From: Veillonella magna DSM 19857
GTDB lineage: Bacteria; Bacillota; Negativicutes; Veillonellales; Veillonellaceae
Length of the DNA stretch: 64,000 bases
Direction: 5' to 3'
Assembly (NCBI RefSeq): GCF_000428745.1
Contig: NZ_KE386795.1
Span: forward strand, 456,692 to 520,691
Positions 25,001-56,295 of this stretch are shown piece after piece. The notes below the pieces were generated by a model that had not been told where the DNA came from, did no database searches, and worked only from the letters and a program-made list of their open reading frames with translations. A program made the translations under genes and the position numbers. Each line of letters starts with the position of its first letter. Position 1 is the stretch's first letter.

Positions 25001-25105
25001 ACAGATAGTAATTGCCGATTATGTATCCCATGACAGTAATTGCTAGGTATACTATGACTGTAATTGCTAGGTATACTATGACAGTAATTGCCGGTCATAG
25101 TATAC
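25001..25105. repeat. 24-bp tandem repeats with a terminal hairpin
   Basis: Two near-identical 24-bp units (25031-25054 and 25055-25078, TGACAGTAATTGCTAGGTAT plus ACTA) are followed by a partial third (25079-25098) and preceded by a degenerate copy near 25001-25024. The end of the block also forms a 12-bp inverted repeat, GTATACTATGAC at 25071-25082 with GTCATAGTATAC at 25094-25105. No open frame uses it. It lies just upstream of the tRNA-Ala promoter. Confidence 0.8.
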
Positions 25106-45701: not shown

Positions 45702-47147
45702 TCAAAGACCAAGTAGTCCAATATCCATTATTTTTCCCGACAGATAGTGCTCGTATGCCATTTCCGCCGGCAAAAATCTAACTTGGATATTTTGAAGACC
45801 CAGTCTATGAAGCATTGCCATGGATACTTCGCCTCGATCTTCTATCTCTTTATTTTCTGTCGGTAACAGGAAACAGTTTTTCACCGCATCAAATTCATGG
45901 TCCTCAATGAATTTTTGATACGCCAACTGATATAGATATTGCTTCGTCACCGATTCAATCCCTGGTTGTCTTGTAGGTGGAGTGCCCGCTCTCAGTTTAG
46001 GAACATAGTACTTTGCGTCGAAGATGATGAACTGCCACTTAGTCCCCACCTTAGCTATTGAAATTAAATCAGGAATGAGCGTATCTGCTGCGGTCTTTCC
46101 CGTTGCCGTCCAAAGAGGCTTTTCAATCAAGTCTATCAACTTCTGCTTTCGATCGTACTCAGGCTTTAGAGGAACGGGCAACTTGATCGCCCCTAGCGGT
46201 GTATCTAGCTTATTATTCATGATATCCGCACAAATATGTTCCCATACAAGATTGAAACTATTCGTTCCAAAAAGTGACAAACAATCCATGTCATATAAAT
46301 TCCCGTTTTGAGAAATATATGTATAAATTGTTTTCAGCAGCAGTTGCTTTCTCGTATTAAACTGTGTATTAAGTTCCTGTTCTAGCCGATACAGAATGTA
46401 CTCAACATCCCCAAAATCGTCTAATTCCTCGTCTGTTAAATCTATATCCGTAATCTCAAATAAATCTAGCAGCCCTGCTTCTTTGAGTTCCTTAGACGCT
46501 TTGGTTAAAACGCATTCATGTAGTCGCTTGAAGTAGTCGTGGTCATTCGTGACACGCTTTTTCGTTTGCAGATCAATATAATAGGGACGATTTTCCGAAA
46601 TGAGCGTAAAAGTTTCATTAATGGTTTTGTCCCAAAGAATCTCACCAAATCCATTGCTTTCGACAATATCCTCGGTGGTCGTGTAAACTCCATTTTCATA
46701 ATAGTCCTGAAGCAAAAATAAGAGCACGGCTAATAAATTAAAGGTACTCCCTTCACTACTATCATTGAAAATACTAATGATCTGCTCTTTGGAGTTGTAT
46801 TTTTCTAGGACTTTGAGAATCTGTTGTAGTTCTTTTTGTGGTGTACGATTAGGCGGCAGATACTTTGGATAACATTTGAGAACACGCCCTGCAACAACGA
46901 TGACGCCCACAAAAGTAATCACGTATAGATATTCGTCATCACCTTCAACAACATCCGTTACTGCGACATCTTCATCGAGTAAGTCAGACATATTTTTCTG
47001 CTCATCAGTATATTTAACCGATTTAAGTACCCCAAATTCTTTTAACCTACGAATCAACGGTACAACCTTATCTTCTGAGCAGTGCATAATACGACAAATA
47101 TCTCTTTGTGTATATCTGTGCTGTTCTCTAATAAATTCGGAGATCAT
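45702..47147 (-). CDS. LlaJI-family restriction endonuclease subunit
   Basis: This 481-residue protein matches the LlaJI restriction endonuclease family (RE_LlaJI). An N-terminal winged-helix region (YTQRDICRIMHCSEDKVV) is followed by an all-helical middle and a C-terminal PD-(D/E)xK nuclease site: P359-D360 and D377-A-K379 in FIIFDAKYY. In LlaJI of Lactococcus two restriction proteins, this nuclease and a McrB-like GTPase, are both needed for cutting. Here the GTPase gene lies 12 bases upstream. LlaJI recognises the asymmetric site GACGC; the target here is not known. Confidence 0.85.
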   Translation of the reverse strand: MISEFIREQHRYTQRDICRIMHCSEDKVVPLIRRLKEFGVLKSVKYTDEQKNMSDLLDEDVAVTDVVEGDDEYLYVITFVGVIVVAGRVLKCYPKYLPPNRTPQKELQQILKVLEKYNSKEQIISIFNDSSEGSTFNLLAVLLFLLQDYYENGVYTTTEDIVESNGFGEILWDKTINETFTLISENRPYYIDLQTKKRVTNDHDYFKRLHECVLTKASKELKEAGLLDLFEITDIDLTDEELDDFGDVEYILYRLEQELNTQFNTRKQLLLKTIYTYISQNGNLYDMDCLSLFGTNSFNLVWEHICADIMNNKLDTPLGAIKLPVPLKPEYDRKQKLIDLIEKPLWTATGKTAADTLIPDLISIAKVGTKWQFIIFDAKYYVPKLRAGTPPTRQPGIESVTKQYLYQLAYQKFIEDHEFDAVKNCFLLPTENKEIEDRGEVSMAMLHRLGLQNIQVRFLPAEMAYEHYLSGKIMDIGLLGL

Positions 47148-47159
47148 AAGTCAAGCTCC

Positions 47160-48959
47160 TCATTCATTTTCATCAACTTTTTCATTTATAATCTCAAGTC
47201 CCGTTTGAGCGATAATGTCGGCATCAAATATATTAATTCCTTTATCATCGAACTCACGGCAAATTTCAGAGTATCTGTTGGCGTTCTGTGCGCAACCGCC
47301 AAATAGCTTAGACCGTTTTTGCTTTGCTGCATCCTCGAACAAGTACATGATGACCTTGTTTTTAAATACACGAATAAATTTTTCCCGATCAATTTCATCG
47401 CCATTTTCCGGCACGACTATATTTTTAGAGATGAAATATGGTCCAAGTTGCTTATCTTCGTTGATTTTTTGATTAGCTAAGAAGTCATTAATCGCCTTTC
47501 TTAACTTATTCCATTCCACCTTCTGCGATTCATCTTTGCCAAGACAAACATACTTTCCACGGATTTGTTCATCGCTTTCATTGATGCCCAAATAGGTGAA
47601 ATCCCATCTACGCTTAAAGGCGGTATCCATAGGAAATACACCTTGGTCGGCACTATTCATCGTTGCCCAGATGAACATATTGTCGGGGATGCGAATTTTA
47701 GAATAGTCTTCTGGTGAACCGCCCAATTCGCTGCACAGATATTTCTTTATATCCTCGGAGGCTTGAATAGGATACTCGCTTACGCCATTTTCATCTCTAT
47801 CAAGCAACTGGAATATATCACCAAAAACCGACGCTACATTAGCGCGATTAATTTCCTCGATGATGAGTAGGAACGGTCTAATATGATCCGTCCTGCTATT
47901 TTTAAGTGCCTTGACATACATCCGCATAAACGGTCCGGGCACATACTCGTAAGAAATATCTTTCTTCGATTTTTTCGGAGATAAAAATTTAACGTATGGA
48001 CGATCTCCTCCGTTCTGAATCTGATAGGGTAAACTATCTTCTGCTACGAGTGATTCGTCTGCAAAAACTCCTGGCGATAGAGGTCTCTCAATTTTTTCTT
48101 GAGTCGTTTTTGTCTTATCCGTTAAGATAGAAAATGCTTTTGCTTTGTCATCATCAACGTAAGCGTTGTTATCGTCACTCACCATCACAGGTTTGTATGT
48201 GCCGACAAAATTCGCATATGAGTAATCCGGATGGAAGGTAACTCGTTCATAGTCGTTTTCGTTACCTTCTCCGATCAGTTCTTTTGCCTGTTTATTGATC
48301 GTATAACTCTTCCCTGTTCCCGGTGCGCCAAAAAGGATGCGATTTCTTTCAAAATCAGATTGATATCCTGTGTTAAAGTTTATTGAACGCTCTTCATCAT
48401 GTGCATCCTCTAAATCTGTCTTTCGAGTTTCTGCATCCAAAGATGCTCTATTATCATACATGGAAATGTAGTCGTATATTTTGTCTTTATGTACAACCGC
48501 TATCTTGATCCCTAGTTTGTTGGTAATTCTCTCAAAAGGAAGTGTTGGAATATAATTATTGGGGATAATAATTTGATTTCCTGGACCGTTCCTTTTCCCT
48601 TCCTTTGTCCCTGAAATTTCCTCTATAATTTTTTCATTAGACTCAAGGCTAAAAATGTAGTTTTGATATTTCTCAACCGAGCTATTTAGTCCTAAGCAAA
48701 AGTATTTCATTTCTTGCTTTAATGCATAATTCCACGCAACACTTCTTTCAAAAGCACCACTATCTCGAGTATCAAAATAATTTTTTGTATTGTCTTGCTT
48801 GTGTACTAGCGGATACAAAAATAAGACAATTTTTTCTCCATTTTTTAAAGTTAGAACGATGCCTCTATTTTTTGTTTCACTAATGTACTCCTTTTGAGAT
48901 TCATCTAGGAGCATATATTCATTTAATGCATCTGCTGCCTGTGATACCGTATATGCCAT
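47160..48959 (-). CDS. McrB-like AAA+ GTPase subunit of the LlaJI-like system
   Basis: A 599-residue protein with an N-terminal domain probably reading DNA and a C-terminal AAA+ GTPase. Walker A is G211-A-P-G-T-G-K-S218, Walker B is LLIIEEINRANVASVFGDIF near 364, and the McrB-type sensor ATMNSADQGVFPMDTAFKRR lies near 431. McrB-family motors translocate on DNA by GTP hydrolysis to bring nuclease subunits together. It sits between the methyltransferases and the LlaJI nuclease gene in one operon. Confidence 0.88.
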   Translation of the reverse strand: MAYTVSQAADALNEYMLLDESQKEYISETKNRGIVLTLKNGEKIVLFLYPLVHKQDNTKNYFDTRDSGAFERSVAWNYALKQEMKYFCLGLNSSVEKYQNYIFSLESNEKIIEEISGTKEGKRNGPGNQIIIPNNYIPTLPFERITNKLGIKIAVVHKDKIYDYISMYDNRASLDAETRKTDLEDAHDEERSINFNTGYQSDFERNRILFGAPGTGKSYTINKQAKELIGEGNENDYERVTFHPDYSYANFVGTYKPVMVSDDNNAYVDDDKAKAFSILTDKTKTTQEKIERPLSPGVFADESLVAEDSLPYQIQNGGDRPYVKFLSPKKSKKDISYEYVPGPFMRMYVKALKNSRTDHIRPFLLIIEEINRANVASVFGDIFQLLDRDENGVSEYPIQASEDIKKYLCSELGGSPEDYSKIRIPDNMFIWATMNSADQGVFPMDTAFKRRWDFTYLGINESDEQIRGKYVCLGKDESQKVEWNKLRKAINDFLANQKINEDKQLGPYFISKNIVVPENGDEIDREKFIRVFKNKVIMYLFEDAAKQKRSKLFGGCAQNANRYSEICREFDDKGINIFDADIIAQTGLEIINEKVDENE

Positions 48960-48975
48960 AATACATCTTCCTCTA

Positions 48976-50220
48976 CTAACCGATTATTTCAAAAGTCTCT
49001 AGCGTGTCAATTACAGCTTCTGCGCAGCACTTTGCAAATAACGGCGGAACTGCATTGCCTATCATTTTATATAATTCCATGTTACTCCCCGTAAACACGT
49101 AATCATCAGAAAAAGTTTGCAATCTTGCTGCCTCTCTAACTGTTATAGTTCTTTGTTGCTTAGAATCTGGATGAATATGTCGTAACCCATCCTTATACAA
49201 ATGCGCCGGGATTAAATTACTAGGTGCATCCCAACGAATAACATGATATTTATGAACATTAGACTTTCTTCCAGTCATTTCAGTATATAGTTCTTTCAGC
49301 GCGGCAATTGACGTATATTGGTTTCTTCCAGATTCAATATCTTCCGTTAATAGCTTAAAAATACCAATATCTCTATCACTCTGCCATCTAGCGATATGAT
49401 TAGGTATTGTACTATCCGGAATTGTATGTCTCGTCCTGCCCCCGTTTATTTTAATATCCTCATTTACTGGATATAATTTAGGAAGATCGCCTATAGCCTC
49501 AAAAACAGTCATTTTCTTTAGTGTTTTATGTTTTGGTAACGCAACTTTGTAAAAATAATCAATAGCCTCTTTACTACGATCTCCCAAAACATCTTTTCGC
49601 ACACCAAAAATAATAATTCTTTTTCGATTTTGAGGAACACCGTAGTCGGTAAAGTCCACAACTGCTTCCCCCAAGTCAGGCAAAAGCAAGTATCCTGATT
49701 CATTAAAACGCTCTTGTATTATATCTTTTATCGGTCTATCTCCAGGTTTAGCACTTAAGAGACCAGGTACGTTTTCAAAGATAAATGCCTTAGGTTTATA
49801 TCGTTCTAATACTTTTATGTAGCTCTCAAATAAATAGTTTCTGTAATCATTTTTCATTCCAAACTCATCACGAACTCGCCCGGCAATGGAATAAGCTTGA
49901 CACGGTGGCCCACCGATTACAATATCAATTCCCTTGGCATTATTAACCAACTTATCTAAGCCACTTGAACTACTGTATTGTGGATCACCTTCCCATCCAT
50001 TAAACAATTCTTCTGTTCGTTGAATATCAAATCTAATAACTCTTTCTTCGGCATCTTTATAATGCCATTTGTCCCGTAACCTAATTTTGAGATTCTCGCT
50101 AGGGGCTTTCTCCCACTCAACAGCAGCTACTGTCTCAAAGCCCCCCGATTGCTCAAAGCCATCCATCAATCCACCGCATCCCGCAAATAAATCAATGGAG
50201 CGGATTTTATTTTTTTTCAT
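48976..50220 (-). CDS. DNA C5-cytosine methyltransferase M1
   Basis: All main cytosine-5 methyltransferase motifs are seen: I DLFAGCGGLMDGF, IV GGPPCQAYS with the catalytic Cys, VI FENVPG, VIII VPQNRKR and X MIGNAVPP. The target-recognition region lies between VIII and X. I prefer the ATG at 50220 (414 residues), seven bases after CAGGAG, over the one at 50226. It overlaps the end of the second methyltransferase gene. Two methyltransferases are needed because an asymmetric site has a different cytosine to protect on each strand. Confidence 0.93.
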   Translation of the reverse strand: MKKNKIRSIDLFAGCGGLMDGFEQSGGFETVAAVEWEKAPSENLKIRLRDKWHYKDAEERVIRFDIQRTEELFNGWEGDPQYSSSSGLDKLVNNAKGIDIVIGGPPCQAYSIAGRVRDEFGMKNDYRNYLFESYIKVLERYKPKAFIFENVPGLLSAKPGDRPIKDIIQERFNESGYLLLPDLGEAVVDFTDYGVPQNRKRIIIFGVRKDVLGDRSKEAIDYFYKVALPKHKTLKKMTVFEAIGDLPKLYPVNEDIKINGGRTRHTIPDSTIPNHIARWQSDRDIGIFKLLTEDIESGRNQYTSIAALKELYTEMTGRKSNVHKYHVIRWDAPSNLIPAHLYKDGLRHIHPDSKQQRTITVREAARLQTFSDDYVFTGSNMELYKMIGNAVPPLFAKCCAEAVIDTLETFEIIG

Positions 50221-51277
50221 TTTCATTCTCCTGAATAATTTCCATTATCGCATTAGCCAAAGCTTGTCCTAATAATGGCGGGACTGCATTTCCTACTTGT
50301 CTGCATTGCTGTGTTTTCGTCCCAGTAAAAATAAAATCATCGGGGAAAGATTGCATTCTTGCGCTTTCACGTACAGTAGGAACTCGATTAAATGTATAGT
50401 GGAATAGATTTCTATGCCCTGTATCTACCGTTCTGGCCGGAGCATTTCCGTTCAATCTAGTCCATGCCATATGAAATTTTCTGCTTTCTCCCCAACCCTT
50501 AGGGAGATCTTTATAGTTCCCTCCCTCAGGAACAAGCGCAATTGTCTCCTTGACCATTTGAGTGTGATTTGTTCCTAAGTGGTTATATAGTACAGTACAC
50601 TTTCCGCGCATCAATTTTTGATATTCTGTTAACGGCGCCTGTTGATATTCTGATACGTCAGCGCCAATTCCATCTTCTAATGAAGGCAAATCACTTATAG
50701 CGTCCCTACATGTACGATAATTTGTTGTATCGAATTCTGCTATTGGAAAAACTGGTACACCTATGTCTTTTCTAATTCCCATAAAAATTAATCTTTTTCT
50801 CATCTGAGGAACGCCATAATCAGCTGCACAAAGAATTTTACAATCAATGTTATATCCTATTGCTCTGAAACGGCGGAGAATTTCTTCTTTGATTTGCCCC
50901 TTATAAAGGGTTGCCATTCCAGGAACGTTTTCTATTATAAAAGCCTTCGGTTTAAACTGTTTTACAATCTCAATAACCGCTAAATATAGCTTGTTTCTTT
51001 CATCTTCAAAATTTCTTGGCCCCGTTAAAGAAAAACCCTGACACGGAGGCCCTGCAATTACTACATCAATTTCTCGATTACCTGCAATATTCTTAATCTC
51101 ATCAAAGGTTTCCTGTTTGGAAAGGTCTGCATTCATCGCAATCGCGCCGTTATGGTTTTTAGCAAATGTATTTAAGGCCGCTTGGTCATTGTCAACTCCT
51201 ACAATAATATCAAAACCGGCATCCATAAAGCCTTTAGATAGCCCACCACAACCGGCAAATAAATCGATAGCATTCAT
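50207..51277 (-). CDS. DNA C5-cytosine methyltransferase M2
   Basis: A second, distinct cytosine-5 methyltransferase of 356 residues: motif I IDLFAGCGGLSKGF, IV AGPPCQGFS, VI IENVPG, VIII VPQMRKR and X VGNAVPP. It differs from its neighbour throughout the target-recognition region, consistent with methylation of the other strand. It starts 16 bases after the small regulator gene and overlaps M1, so the operon is tightly packed. Confidence 0.93.
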   Translation of the reverse strand: MNAIDLFAGCGGLSKGFMDAGFDIIVGVDNDQAALNTFAKNHNGAIAMNADLSKQETFDEIKNIAGNREIDVVIAGPPCQGFSLTGPRNFEDERNKLYLAVIEIVKQFKPKAFIIENVPGMATLYKGQIKEEILRRFRAIGYNIDCKILCAADYGVPQMRKRLIFMGIRKDIGVPVFPIAEFDTTNYRTCRDAISDLPSLEDGIGADVSEYQQAPLTEYQKLMRGKCTVLYNHLGTNHTQMVKETIALVPEGGNYKDLPKGWGESRKFHMAWTRLNGNAPARTVDTGHRNLFHYTFNRVPTVRESARMQSFPDDFIFTGTKTQQCRQVGNAVPPLLGQALANAIMEIIQENENEKK

Positions 51278-51292
51278 TCAATTTCCTCCCAA

Positions 51293-51496
51293 TCAGTCCT
51301 TAATAAATTCACATATATCCGAAATGTCGCAATCAAGTCTAGAACATATTTTAAGCAAAACGTCCATACTCACAGGTTGATTTTTACTCAACTTAGCCAA
51401 TGTATTCGTTCCAATTCCCGTTAACAATCTCAATTCACTTTTATTTATTCCTCTATCTATTATTAACTTCCACAACTTATTATAGCTTACATCCAT
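51293..51496 (-). CDS. Cro/CI-type regulator, probable controller of the restriction system
   Basis: This 67-residue helix-turn-helix protein has GINKSELRLLTGIGTNTLAKL as its reading-head region (start quoted) and ends in a short helical dimer segment. Proteins of this size at the head of restriction operons act as controllers that delay endonuclease synthesis until DNA is methylated. It is the first gene of the operon, with GAGGAG before its ATG. No operator sequence is recognised in the promoter region. Confidence 0.85.
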   Translation of the reverse strand: MDVSYNKLWKLIIDRGINKSELRLLTGIGTNTLAKLSKNQPVSMDVLLKICSRLDCDISDICEFIKD

Positions 51497-51561
51497 TTAA
51501 GCCACTCCTCTGCCAGACAAGAAAAGTCACAATTTCGCTACAAATAAATTTAGTTTGTTCT

Positions 51562-51590
51562 ATAATAGCATTTCACATAGAATATATCAA
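51562..51590 (-). promoter_or_regulatory. Promoter of the LlaJI-like operon
   Basis: TTGATA (51590-51585), 17 bases, TATTAT (51567-51562), about 65 bases before the controller gene on the minus strand. Confidence 0.75.
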
Positions 51591-51828
51591 CGGAGAAATA
51601 AAATATTTCAATATCTGCATATTTCACTCAGTTATTCTACCAGTGATGCCCAGCTATCGTTAATACCATACGCACATTCCTCTATTCCCCCTCTCTATCC
51701 TCTAGAAATCACACACCTGTTTTTAGGCACAAAAAAAGCCGGCCTTCTGCCGACATTCGCTAAACACACTCTATATATGTGGTTTTCCGCTACGCGCCCC
51801 GATTGATAAGTTTTATCACATCAAACAC
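51591..51828. other. Junction between the LlaJI-like operon and the hsdM remnant
   Basis: Contains no credible gene. A GC-rich hairpin with a T7 tail on the minus strand (51731-51754) looks like a terminator left from another unit. The hsdM frame ends at 51829 right after VYD, just where the PCCGSGGM motif should follow, so the recombination point is about 51830-51840. Confidence 0.6.
51731..51754 (-). terminator. Terminator between the hsdM remnant and the LlaJI-like operon
   Basis: GTCGGC and GCCGGC arms over AGAAG, followed by seven T on the minus strand. Confidence 0.65.
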
Positions 51829-52427
51829 TTACATATCATACACACGACCCCGAAACGGTTTCAACACTTCTACTAACGTGCGAACTACACAAGAAGGCGT
51901 GAAAAACTCACCGCCACGCTTACCTTCTTGTTCGGCAAACATAGCTAAACAATATTCATAAGTACGTCCTAAAATATCTTTTTCACTACCATGTTCAATC
52001 ATTTTAATATTGGTAAACAAATCGACAACTTCACCCAACCGTCGTTTATCCAATTCCGGAAGAGCAAAGTTTTTAGGGAGAATATCCTTGAGACGTGTAT
52101 TTTCTTTTCAATAGCTCTCATAGCATTGTCAATAACCGTCCCTATTTCTTCCTCACGCGACTTTGCCGCAATTTCATTCCAACGCGCGCCAGCTGGAACA
52201 AAAAAAATTCCATCCGAAAGATATTCATCTCTATCCTCTTCAAATCCTTCCCCTTCTTCTACCAGGGCTTGGTATTTTTCATCGAATCTGTCGGAGATAT
52301 ATTTTAAAAAGATAAGTCCAAGAACAACGCTCTTGTATTCTGAAGCATCTATGTTACCACGCAACACACAGGCTGCATCCCAAATCTCTTTTTCAAATCC
52401 AATATCTGCTGTACTCTTTGCTGCCAT
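51829..52427 (-). pseudogene. hsdM: 5' remnant of type I modification subunit HsdM
   Basis: The start MAAKSTADIGFEKEIWDAAC at 52427 follows GGAAGG and matches the HsdM N-terminal helical domain. Near 52100-52108 one A is missing from an A run; reading the next frame restores NTRLKDILPKNF-type sequence, KRRLGEVVDLFTNI and GGEFFTPSCVVRTLVEVL. The frame then ends after VYD, before the SAM-binding PCCGSGG and the catalytic NPPY motifs. HsdM is normally ~500 residues, so this copy has both a frameshift and a lost 3' two-thirds. No hsdS is present in the window. Confidence 0.9.
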
Positions 52428-52590
52428 TTAAGTTCTACCTTCCCTTGCACGTTTATACCAATCCAAAATATATTGAACCTTATCTCTTGGAGTCCTTCAA
52501 TTATAGTTCATGCTATTTTCATTTTATTATAGCACACCTCATCAATTATCCCCTGAATCCCCTCGCCTTGATTAACTCTTTCTTGTTCTC

Positions 52591-53655
52591 TTAATAGTAG
52601 CCATTCTCCCTATACTCTGCATCGTATTTTTCCCATGACCGTACAGCTGCTTTCCAATCCTTCATAGGATATTTACCTCGCACCCATCCGATAGAGTCGT
52701 AATAAGCAACAAACATCTCCGGATCAATCACATTGCCTCGTTCCTTACAATACGCCTCTACCATCTCTACCGTAGGCGGAACAAATTCCTCTTCTTTTAT
52801 TTTCTCTTCACGCATGTTGTCGTTATGCATGTTGTCATCATATACTTTGTTATTACGCATGTTGTCGTCGTACACGGTGTCATCATACACTTTGTTATCA
52901 TGCATGTTATTGTCATACATGGTGTCATCATACATGGTGCCATCATGCATTTCATCATCATACATGATGTTACCATGCATATCAGCGTTGTCCGAACGGT
53001 AAGCATTTTCTTTTTTTTCTTTTTCTTTTTTTTCACCCCCTGAAAAAGAAAATTCAGAAAGACTGTCTGGTCTGGTTTGATTGTCTTGTCTAGTGTTGGT
53101 GTCTTGTATAGTATTAGTCTGGTCTTGTCTAGTCTGGTTTAGTCTAGGTATGTGTCCGTCCTGTGTATCATGCGCTATGTCACAGGTGTTGTCATACACT
53201 ATATCATGTGGTGTGTCATAGACCGTGTCATCCTTTGTGTCATGCCCTGTGTCATATACTGTGTCATGCAGTGTATCACGTTCTGTGGTATATCCTTTGT
53301 CATAGCCTGTGTCATGTTCCGTATCACGCCGTGTAGTATAGGTATCATAGCCTGTAGCAATTCCCGGTTCGTCACTCATAGGCAGTAATTCGTATTCCGT
53401 TGCTTTCATGTCGGATCGTGTTGTATAACGAATACGGCCTGACTCTTGAAGAAGTTTGCGTGCCCGTACAATTGACGATCGTGATAAACCGGAATCCCCC
53501 ATAAGTAAACTGATAGGTACATTAAATACTCGCTTCCATCCACAGCTGTTATTGTAATGCATCAACGTAAACCAGAGTATCCGCGCTGATGTAGGAAGCT
53601 CCGGATGTGTTTGTACCCACTTGTGAAATCCATTAATTTCATTAATATAAGACAT
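52591..53655 (-). CDS. Phage-type replication protein with two Asp-rich repeat arrays
   Basis: The N terminus (INGFHKWVQTHPELPTSARI, then LLMGDSGLSRSSIVRARKLL) matches winged-helix replisome organisers of Firmicute phages. The C terminus (VEAYCKERGNVIDPEMFVAY, KDWKAAVRSWEK) matches the DnaD-like tail of the same proteins. Between them are a tetrapeptide array of the form xYDT/xHDT (residues 101-164), an Asn/Gln/Thr-rich stretch, a Lys/Glu run and a pentapeptide array of the form MYDDx/MHDNx (226-285). Both are encoded by tandem DNA repeats. No other phage genes are adjacent. AAGGAGG precedes the ATG. Confidence 0.8.
   Translation of the reverse strand: MSYINEINGFHKWVQTHPELPTSARILWFTLMHYNNSCGWKRVFNVPISLLMGDSGLSRSSIVRARKLLQESGRIRYTTRSDMKATEYELLPMSDEPGIATGYDTYTTRRDTEHDTGYDKGYTTERDTLHDTVYDTGHDTKDDTVYDTPHDIVYDNTCDIAHDTQDGHIPRLNQTRQDQTNTIQDTNTRQDNQTRPDSLSEFSFSGGEKKEKEKKENAYRSDNADMHGNIMYDDEMHDGTMYDDTMYDNNMHDNKVYDDTVYDDNMRNNKVYDDNMHNDNMREEKIKEEEFVPPTVEMVEAYCKERGNVIDPEMFVAYYDSIGWVRGKYPMKDWKAAVRSWEKYDAEYRENGYY
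52801..52980. repeat. 15-bp tandem repeats encoding pentapeptides
   Basis: Twelve degenerate 15-bp units encode MYDDx/MHDNx/VYDDx pentapeptides in the replication protein. Changes by whole units keep the frame. Confidence 0.85.
53164..53355. repeat. 12-bp tandem repeats encoding tetrapeptides
   Basis: About sixteen degenerate 12-bp units encode xYDT/xHDT tetrapeptides in the same protein. The unit differs from the 15-bp array, so the two arrays expanded independently. Confidence 0.85.
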
Positions 53656-53717
53656 ACTAATTCCTCCTTATACACATAACCAATCATCCCAAACTCATAC
53701 CGACTCATTTCGGTTCA

Positions 53718-53836
53718 TACTTCGTTATTGCAACTTACACTTCTTTATTACTACTGTACTTCTTTATTACCACTTGTACTTCTGTATTGCCACTTGCACT
53801 TTTGTATTGCCACTTATATTTCATCGTTGCCCTTCG
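53718..53836. repeat. 20-bp iteron-like tandem repeats upstream of the replication protein
   Basis: Six adjacent ~20-bp units of the form TACTTCTTTATTACCACTTG, best in the middle (53757-53816) and degenerate at the ends. They lie about 60-180 bases before the replication-protein start codon. The length and placement resemble plasmid iterons. The rest of 53656-54039 is AT-rich and holds no gene. Confidence 0.75.
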
Positions 53837-54039
53837 TACTCACTCATATTCATGCTGACCCACAGTACCTATACACGATATGCCCCTCTTTCCTTTACAG
53901 CAGTATTCGTTGCCAACACCTTCAGATAAATATACAATATATAACGATGTTTTTAACAAAAATGTAAATTTAATTATTTTGTAACATAGTTAATTATTAT
54001 ATCACTTTTATCATAAATAGATAGTAAAAATTTGCATAC

Positions 54040-54068
54040 AAAAACGGGCCTCCTTTCGGAGACCCGTT
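54040..54068 (-). terminator. Terminator after the cold-shock gene
   Basis: ACGGGTCTCC pairs with GGAGGCCCGT with one mismatch over a four-base loop, followed by TTTTT on the minus strand. Confidence 0.8.
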
Positions 54069-54095
54069 AAAAGAGCAATCGCTCTCAGTGTTCAA

Positions 54096-54293
54096 TTATG
54101 CTTTTACTACGTTAGTCGCCTGGGGACCACGAGGGCCATCTACGATTTCGAACTCAACTTCCTGACCTTCAGCCAAGGAGCGGAACCCGTCTTCTTGGAT
54201 AGCGGAATAATGCACGAATACATCGCCACCATTTTCTCTTTCAATAAAACCATAACCTTTTTCTGCACTGAACCACTTAACTTTACCAAGCAT
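54096..54293 (-). CDS. Cold-shock protein, CspA family
   Basis: A 65-residue single cold-shock domain: [20 protein letters not shown] includes RNP1 (KGYGFI), and DVFVHYSAI is RNP2. It binds single-stranded RNA and DNA as an RNA chaperone. The start at 54293 follows AGGAGG. The promoter is about 55 bases upstream, and the ~50-nt leader holds a small hairpin (GGCATC with GATGCC). Confidence 0.95.
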
Positions 54294-54345
54294 ACAAATT
54301 CCTCCTAAACTGTCCAAGCAACCGGCATCCTCGATGCCTATGGTC

Positions 54346-54374
54346 ATAGTAGCACGCATGCGTACATGTGTCAA
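54346..54374 (-). promoter_or_regulatory. Promoter of the cold-shock gene
   Basis: TTGACA (54374-54369), 17 bases, TACTAT (54351-54346). The spacer contains the palindrome ACGCATGCGT. Confidence 0.78.
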
Positions 54375-54482
54375 CAAATTTATACCTATCACGGACATGA
54401 TTATGCGTTATCAGTATATAATCAAAAAATTATACTACCATTATGAGAAAATAGCGTGACTTTTTTCAAATTCTTGAATAGC

Positions 54483-54525
54483 AAAATCCTCTGCACCAAT
54501 TCCTATTTGACGCAGAGGATTTTTT
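54483..54525. terminator. Terminator after the amino-acid transporter genes
   Basis: AAAATCCTCTGC pairs exactly with GCAGAGGATTTT over a 17-base loop, with short T tracts in both directions. 54526-54626 shows nothing else. Confidence 0.75.
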
Positions 54526-54626
54526 ATTCATTGATTAAATTCTATAAGGGAAACATGGATATGCAACTATCTATTTTTCCCTATCACTATACACCGTCAA
54601 ACAGTTATAGCTAAGAAAGTAATCAC

Positions 54627-55346
54627 TTATAATATTTTCGATAAGAATAATTTTGTTCTATCGTTTTGCGGATTGTCAAATACATCCGCCGGCGAACCGG
54701 ATTCCAAAATCTGACCGCCGTCAACAAAGAGTACGCGCGTACCTACTTCTTTGGCAAAGCCCATTTCGTGTGTAACTACAACCATGGTCATGCCTTCTTC
54801 GGCGAGGCTCTTCATTACATCCAATACTTCGTGAACCATTTCCGGATCAAGGGCGGATGTAGGTTCGTCGAAAAGCATTACCTTCGGCTTCATTGCCAAC
54901 GCGCGGGCAATGGCTACACGCTGTTGCTGACCGCCGGACAGCTGTTCCGGATAGGCCTGAGCTTTATCCGCCAAACCTACTTTTTTCAAAAGCTCCATCG
55001 CAGTTGCTTCCGCTTCTGCCTTAGATACTTTACGAATTTTCTGCGGTGCCAAGGTAATGTTATCCAATACCGTCATATGCGGGAACAGGTTAAATCGCTG
55101 AAACACCATACCTACTTCGGCACGAACGTTATTAATATTTTCTTTAATATTAAGGTTCATACCATCAACGATAACATCGCCGGAGGTTGGTTCTTCCAAA
55201 TAATTCATGCAGCGAAGCACCGTACTTTTACCGGAACCGGACGGTCCGATGATAACAACTACTTCCCCCTGTTCGATATCTAAATTAATTCCTTTCAGCA
55301 CTTCCAGCTTGCCAAAGCTTTTATGTACATCGATCATCTGAATCAT
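54627..55346 (-). CDS. glnQ: Polar amino-acid ABC transporter ATPase
   Basis: ATPase of 239 residues with Walker [10 protein letters not shown], signature [16 protein letters not shown], Walker [13 protein letters not shown] and the His of VVTHEMGFA, all typical of the GlnQ/ArtM group. It should energise uptake of a polar amino acid with the permease gene that it overlaps by four bases. Substrate is not clear from the ATPase. Confidence 0.92.
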
Positions 55347-55999
55347 TTGATTTTATATCTCCTTTCCAGATAGCCTACCAGCTGAGAAATACTCAATGTC
55401 ATAATAAGGTAAATAATAGCAACGGCAGACCAAATTTCAAAGGAGCCGTACGTACGAGCAATGATGAGCTGGCCGCGGCGTGTCAATTCTTCGAAGCCGA
55501 TAACGGATACCAAGGAAGTATCTTTCATCATGGCAATAAATTCATTTCCCAACGGCGGGATGATGGCTTTAAATGCCTGCGGCATAACAATGTAACGCAT
55601 CGTCTGTCCCCAAGTTAGTCCCAAGGAACGACCGGCTTCCATCTGACCTTTATCGATGGATTGAATACCGGCGCGGAAAATTTCGGATACGTACGCACCG
55701 GAGTTAATACTACATGCCGTAACGGCTGCAACGTACGGATCGATGCGATGCCCGATTACCATCGGCAATGCAAAGTAAATCATAAAGATTTGTACCAACA
55801 GCGGTGTGCCGCGGAATAATTCCACATAGCATTTTACCAACAGGCGAATCGGTTTAAATCGCGACATATTCGCTAGCGATGCAATCATACCAATTAAAAA
55901 GCCGCAACCTACACTCATAATCGTAATCTGGATGGTTACGACAGCCCCTTGCAATAACAGAGGCAAGTTGTCCCAAATCAGGCTCCAATTAAAACTCAT
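55343..55999 (-). CDS. Polar amino-acid ABC transporter permease
   Basis: A 218-residue permease with about five spans. The EAA loop [20 protein letters not shown] is typical of the His/Glu/Gln/Arg permease group, which often works as a homodimer. AAAGGGAAGG precedes the ATG. The binding proteins and aminotransferase lie upstream, separated by 284 bases with repeats. Confidence 0.92.
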
Positions 56000-56210: not shown

Positions 56211-56295
56211 GTCCCGGTCCTGCTGATACAAGCTGCATTAACCCCGACCCCGCTGATACAAGTTGCATTAACCCCGTACCTGCTTATACAAGCTG
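56211..56295. repeat. 30-bp tandem repeats overlapping the aminotransferase stop codon
   Basis: Three 30-bp copies; the last overlaps the 3' end of the aminotransferase gene. On the minus strand each copy reads CTTGTATCAGC with a CGGGG core, but the gene-end copy has TAA in place of TCA. Reading on after the stop gives two further ten-residue copies (MQLVSAGSGL type) in the same frame. Confidence 0.8.

Follow-up and report, generated by a model that had tools for sequence, protein, structure and literature searches.

A phage-type replication initiator with a putative origin inside its own gene, one of 13 dispersed loci in Veillonella magna

The minus-strand open reading frame at positions 52591-53655 of the window, the 64,000-nt stretch of the Veillonella magna DSM 19857 genome analysed here, encodes a 354-residue protein that is most probably a phage-derived, theta-type replication initiator with the origin inside its own coding sequence, the module being stranded in the chromosome together with a target in trans. 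The computational analysis directly yielded the domain layout, the kinship to prophage genes, the structure of the arrays, the dispersed copies and an orphan array that matches the window gene. Origins within initiator genes are already known singly in phages and plasmids; new here are the multi-copy chromosomal set, loci that keep only an array while the matching initiator lies elsewhere, and a promoter-like sequence in common with a sigma/DUF2922 cluster.

Protein domains, phage kinship and genomic setting

In the AlphaFold2 model a winged-helix N-domain and a three-helix C-domain, both confident, flank a disordered linker (Table 1). In VIA-align the N-domain matched best the N-domains of staphylococcal plasmid RepA proteins (4pql, 4pt7 and 5kbj; Z 9.6-10.9), followed by primosomal DnaB (5wtn; Z 9.2), so that the models and alignments give the protein the winged-helix N-domain expected of in-gene-origin initiators such as lambda O and pSK41 Rep. 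Because unrelated generic winged-helix proteins also score 8-10, the similarity to RepA N-domains is a lead, short of proof. Foldseek returned no match of the protein to the PDB at E<=0.001, and the RepA likeness comes from VIA-align; a sequence search of the PDB found no relatives of the protein. RepA_N (PF06970) was matched neither by the protein (hmmscan, E up to 0.1) nor by 26 aligned family members, leaving a similarity of fold only. HTH_36 (PF13730) matched the protein with E=2.8e-4 and 21.1 bits, under the Pfam gathering cut-off of 25. The C-domain had no Pfam match by hmmscan, and the DnaB_2 C-terminal domain (PF07261) was absent from the window protein and present in 5 of 26 homologues.

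The kinship of the protein lies with phages. Its structure matches in BFVD were phage replication initiators and replisome organisers, and residues 197-346 matched PHROG 15768 (E=1.5e-22). By these matches the gene is identified as a phage-type replication initiator, and the earlier note's proposal that the protein ends resemble phage replisome organisers is borne out by the PHROG, by BFVD and by the phage homologues. Homologues in related genomes sit in prophages (L045, L046, L047, L049, L050 and L230, where L labels denote fetched loci) and take the replication position in intact prophages, among genes for SSAP, HNH, Rep, DnaC or SSB, terminase and integrase.

No structural, integration or lysis genes lie beside the window copy, which is placed between cspA and a LlaJI-type restriction-modification (R-M) cluster, its further neighbours being an amino-acid ABC transporter and HsdM fragments. 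The suggestion that it is a stranded replication module agrees with both observations, its relatives being initiators in intact prophages and the window copy having no phage neighbours. The earlier note had named, as evidence to the contrary, a repeat-free version at the same chromosomal position in every relative. This was not what we found: the six other genomes of the genus have no equivalent gene save one prophage copy.

The same stretch holds several further features. The LlaJI-type cluster is complete (45702-51496, minus strand), with an HTH regulator, two C5 methyltransferases, and McrB-like and LlaJI subunits. Immediately downstream of the initiator gene, hsdM is split into HsdM_N and N6_Mtase fragments (51829-52427, minus strand). 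A 24-bp tandem repeat (25023-25091) precedes a tRNA-Ala gene by ~100 bp, and a 30-bp tandem repeat of 2.5 copies (56222-56295) lies close to the end of an aminotransferase-like gene.

Table 1. Features of the initiator gene and its upstream region (window coordinates)
Feature	Position	Strand	Evidence
Winged-helix DNA-binding N-domain (residues 1-95; 1-90 in the AlphaFold2 model)	53371..53655	-	AlphaFold2 pLDDT 91-98; VIA-align; HTH_36 sub-threshold
Helical C-domain (residues 291-344; about 291-350 in the AlphaFold2 model), proposed helicase/primase contact	52624..52785	-	AlphaFold2, three helices at high pLDDT; PHROG 15768
12-bp array of 16 in-register units, each an RTGAYACA core with a 4-bp spacer; putative iterons for Rep binding	53172..53363	-	TRF 12/36-bp at about 53164-53340
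5-bp array of [TAC]A[AG]AC units adjoining the iterons, proposed to open the strands	53063..53151	-	TRF 5/10-bp at 53082-53147
A-rich tract (GGTGAAAAAAAAGAAAAAGAAAAAAAAGAAAA), proposed as the AT-rich portion of the origin	53006..53037	-	Similar A-rich tract at C8
15-bp (pentapeptide) array	52810..52983	-	TRF 15/45-bp at 52808-52970
Upstream array, about five 20-bp units (AAGTGGCAATAMARAAGTAC)	53715..53821	-	TRF at 53719-53815
TTTACA-N-TTATATATTG, weak resemblance to the sigma/DUF2922 cluster promoter, without the GGGG block	53935..53968	-	By eye

Repeat arrays and the proposed in-gene origin

The earlier note had described a replication-type reading frame with 12-bp and 15-bp in-frame coding repeats. 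TRF confirmed these, and the gene holds a third array, of 5-bp units, in the position that this array also occupies in the phage homologues. Synonymous codons were shuffled within each gene, the protein being held fixed. By this measure the DNA repetition of the 12-bp array goes beyond what the protein demands (27/36 against 23.1 in the shuffles, p=0.02). The 15-bp array has no DNA-level excess (35/45 against 34.0, p=0.37) and was dropped as a candidate for iterons; it is a protein-level or tandem-duplication repeat with no sign of DNA-level constraint. The window gene's 5-bp array taken alone likewise has no excess (p=0.31). The coding region contains the proposed iteron array and the proposed AT-rich, opening element, the 12-bp array being degenerate in the window copy (69% by TRF) and near-perfect in the prophages. 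An Rfam search of 51000-55500 returned no match.

The prophage genes present the same plan in regular form. The initiator of L045 has seven perfect 12-bp units (GGAACACAAAGC) within the gene, followed by ..TAGACAAGACAAGACTAGACTAG.., and that of L046 seven near-perfect units (ACGCAAGAGTAT), followed by ..TAGACTAGATAAGACTAGAC... A winged helix, a 12-bp array with a phage-specific unit and a 5-bp array recur in many of the 72 viral and 76 genomic loci; the 5-bp array consists of TAAAC or AGACA units, whose period is out of phase with the codons and which encode a recurring peptide, KLNETKLN or RQDKTRLD. When 133 distinct homologues were compared with their synonymous-codon shuffles, repetition was in excess (p<=0.05; about 7 genes expected) in 51 genes for lag 12, 44 for lag 5 and 16 for the control lag of 15; some of the lag-12 excess could stem from tandem duplication. 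Detectable in this way, the 12-bp plus 5-bp layout offers a means of predicting origin location and initiator specificity from sequence in many Bacillota phages.

A DNA scan of 2.9 million viral contigs for the iterons only (three exact units) matched 44 stretches. About 14 of them were initiator-like as judged by reading the ORFs, and about two thirds were unrelated acidic-repeat (low-complexity) or other genes. The six matches that were scanned all belonged to replication-initiation or DnaD-like helicase-loader families, and one match with six units, L281, came from the window gene's own family. In-gene units with an RTGAYACA core are common to phage initiators of different families (L246, L254, L263, L268, L271-L273, L276, L277 and L281), which suggests convergent or exchanged iterons.

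The prophage linkers combine a perfect or near-perfect 12-bp array with a 5-bp array, an in-gene-origin layout known from lambda O and pSK41 Rep; the in-gene 12-bp units, rather than the 20-bp repeats upstream, are therefore the likely iterons. The earlier note had counted about six of the latter and likened them to plasmid iterons. The array is real, with 46 of 60 bases matching at lag 20 where 1000 dinucleotide shuffles averaged 24 and never exceeded 32, and it is specific to this locus; it holds about five units. The plasmid parallel is probably misplaced, given that the comparison with lambda O, pSK41 Rep and the phage homologues points into the gene. We regard it as very unlikely that this array is the real origin in the style of an iteron plasmid, with the coding repeats serving only as a flexible linker. 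A clear array does lie directly upstream of the gene, and pSK639-type plasmids have 22-bp tandem repeats before rep (PMC5703833); yet the 20-bp unit was absent from every other locus, paralogues included, among the 239 fetched, phage homologues have coding genes at that place, and hmmscan found no Rep_3 domain in the window protein. An autoregulatory role for the array would be a guess.

For the in-gene origin, we infer DNA binding, melting, helicase recruitment and firing from the anatomy of the gene and from pSK41 and lambda. The winged-helix N-domain would bind the 12-bp RTGAYACA units in mid-gene, the 5-bp array alongside and the A-rich tract would open, and the C-domain would bring in a helicase loader, helicase or primase. 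The window copy has no dnaC of its own, so any initiation there would need a loader in trans, and DnaC could be supplied by the three paralogous loci that encode one. The absence of partner genes reported in the earlier note thus holds at the window locus but not for these three paralogues. The coding linker would be present because its DNA is needed, and its use as origin DNA would explain why its length varies; the alternative raised earlier, a host gene with a linker of variable length, is by this reading incomplete.

Dispersed copies, array-only loci and a promoter-like sequence

Counting the window gene, the genome has 13 dispersed loci of this family, many of them partly broken. The window protein alone, used as query against the genome contigs, found nothing, and a family alignment was needed to find the copies. 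Both domains are retained at the window locus and at C5:23.9k, C22:0.9k, C1:195k and C1:21k (C labels are contigs of this genome, G000, and the number after the colon is the position). Six loci have the N-domain without an intact C-domain (C10, C4, C1:544k, C1:328k, C2 and C3), and C8 and C9 retain neither. No close relative carries these 13 loci: among 61 genomes of the order the gene is multi-copy in this one only, and eight others have a single-gene match, located in prophages in those examined. DnaC-like genes follow three paralogous copies, and a sigma-like gene with DUF2922 and DUF1659-type genes follows the copies at C1:195k and C5 (sigma region 4 and DUF matches). Against viral contigs, the sigma-factor alignment found no relatives and the DnaC alignment only two weak ones; the rep-dnaC-sigma-DUF module is thus not seen as a known virus.

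The surroundings of the other copies are varied. A Type I-B CRISPR-Cas operon lies immediately downstream of the C1:21k copy (L032 1796-10715; G000:C1:24-33 kb), and other copies adjoin Old-like and RmrA-like genes. Near two copies are PD-(D/E)XK transposase-like genes that are 83% identical (L009 5627-6673 and L014 4866-5912), accompanied by many short dispersed repeats.

The N-domain dN/dS was 0.09 for C10/C4, 0.13 for C5/C2 and 0.30 for C1:195k/C1:544k; it lay at 0.09-0.34 for most pairs with unsaturated dS, with one outlier at 0.53, and for most other pairs dS was high or saturated. Together these values indicate old copies and past purifying selection on their binding domains, part of which may predate truncation. 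They bear on a plainer account, in which repeated insertion of a phage or plasmid family left copies that are now decaying, and the arrays survive only because the decay is recent. Most copies are indeed truncated, partner genes appear to have been lost stepwise (dnaC remains in three, sigma in two), the window array is degenerate and the gene is multi-copy in one genome of 61. On the other side stand the mostly saturated dS with N-domains intact (dN/dS about 0.1-0.3 where measurable), the near-invariant cores and variable spacers at C8, and the promoter-like sequence common to the copies. We hold this account to be a serious possibility, though a somewhat doubtful one. Like the decoy and regulon proposals below, it is judged here as a statement about benefit to the host, and does not exclude the in-gene origin itself.

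A run of 13 consecutive 12-bp units at C8:19989-20150 retains the RTGAYACA core, whose columns average 1.71 bits. The four spacer positions, at 0.52 bits, are variable, which argues against recent duplication of units; a 5-bp array and then an A-rich tract follow. Both initiator domains are absent and the linker frame is still open, so the loss of coding context may be recent; because of that open frame, a noncoding reading of the array was rejected. In the whole genome, exact three-unit matches to TGAYAC at 12-bp spacing are confined to the window gene (4) and C8 (8), and the C8 array, on another contig, is the predicted trans target of the window initiator. C9, with neither domain, has the common promoter-like sequence and two arrays, one of 5-bp units and one of 12-bp units resembling those at C3 and C5. 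At C3 the N-domain ORF stops at residue 108 and all three frames are interrupted beyond it, yet the 5-bp array there is the most regular of all copies. A chromosome with 13 loci, one of them an array whose matching initiator lies elsewhere, would make it possible to ask whether bacteria keep phage origins as working secondary origins or as decoys.

As decoys, dispersed origins and truncated initiators would persist because an incoming phage whose iterons match would have its initiator titrated or poisoned by them. In-gene iterons with RTGAYACA do occur in phages, among them L281 of the window gene's family; plasmid-borne lambda iterons stop lambda theta replication (PMC3349717); truncated copies retain a DNA-binding domain that shows purifying selection; and copies adjoin LlaJI R-M, CRISPR-Cas I-B, Old-like and RmrA-like genes. 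However, no phage with exactly the window array is known to infect this host, the defence neighbours may merely mark insertion hotspots, the lambda effect also required oop transcription, and the selection could be older than the truncation. We consider this role unlikely.

In nearly all other copies the start is preceded, at a distance of about 35-75 bp, by TTTAMA-N19/20-GTWATA..GGGG, which in most cases has an A/T tract in front of it. In three pattern searches, 12/12, 3/3 and 11/12 matches fell at initiator loci, in the module or upstream of the DUF2922-DUF1659-sigma cluster; the reversed-pattern control of the first gave 0 and the two controls of the third 1 and 1, and the single off-target match of the third lay upstream of an mraZ-like gene. 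C5 has three of these sites, located before rep, sigma and DUF2922. The strict patterns had no match at the window copy. From these positions, a dedicated sigma factor for the common promoter-like sequence is a reasonable inference.

The cluster itself (L025 11686-14169; G000:C21) consists of DUF2922, a YvrJ-like short ORF, a DUF1659-like gene and a sigma-like gene, lies beside dnaA/oriC and has the initiator-copy promoter in front. DUF2922 was present in 29/30 relatives searched, in some adjoining amidase genes, and a literature search found no paper on it; the idea that the DUF2922 cluster of relatives has the common promoter was not supported, the promoter being absent there. Two to three tandem promoter-like sites of different types precede one initiator copy (L019/L026 528, 703 and 855, G000:C22; and G000:C2:27930 and 28071), as if modules had nested or recombined at one spot.

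These sites could be read as a host regulon in which the sigma factor encoded with the DUF2922/DUF1659 genes would activate the dispersed initiators jointly, with programmed amplification of local DNA as the outcome. The TTTAMA-N-ATA-N-GGG sites at copies, module and sigma cluster beside dnaA (reversed controls 0 and 2), the three sites at C5, and the sigma region 4 and DUF matches speak for it; the window copy without a strict site and the DUF2922 loci of relatives without one speak against it, and we think it quite improbable. The broader idea, a network of domesticated phage origins in which initiators with their own iteron cores and initiator-less arrays acted on in trans, under a common alternative-sigma promoter, would serve local amplification or sequester invading-phage initiators, is speculative and rather unlikely.

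Comparison with known systems

The phage-derived initiator with its proposed origin inside the gene is closest in plan to three groups of systems. In pSK41 Rep the origin lies centrally within rep and the encoded middle is dispensable, and pPR9 Rep, which is of this type, carries a phage PF13730-type N-domain (PMC5703833) resembling that of the window protein. With pSK41 and pTZ2162 (RepA_N) and pPR9 Rep, the window protein would share a winged-helix N-domain, origin boxes in mid-gene, a dispensable encoded middle and a C-domain for primosome contact. Unlike this group, it has no RepA_N Pfam match, its units are 12-bp direct repeats rather than four Rep boxes, and its gene is chromosomal and belongs to a dispersed set, with no antisense-RNA control seen.

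In lambda, ori-lambda lies inside O and comprises iterons plus an AT-rich part (PMC3349717); the window gene would likewise place in-gene iterons and an AT-rich element between a DNA-binding N-domain and a proposed helicase-contact C-domain. It differs from lambda in having 12-bp instead of 18-bp iterons, an extra 5-bp array, a DnaC-like loader in relatives and a position outside a prophage.

The third group comprises the DnaD-like replisome organisers of Bacillota siphoviruses. The 'DnaD-like helicase loader' of Aeribacillus phage AP45 is 37.9% identical to the window N-domain over 95 aa, and the 12-bp plus 5-bp linker architecture is common among such genes. Compared with them, the window gene stands apart by its degenerate 12-bp array, its added 15-bp array, its place outside a phage and its membership in a multi-copy set.
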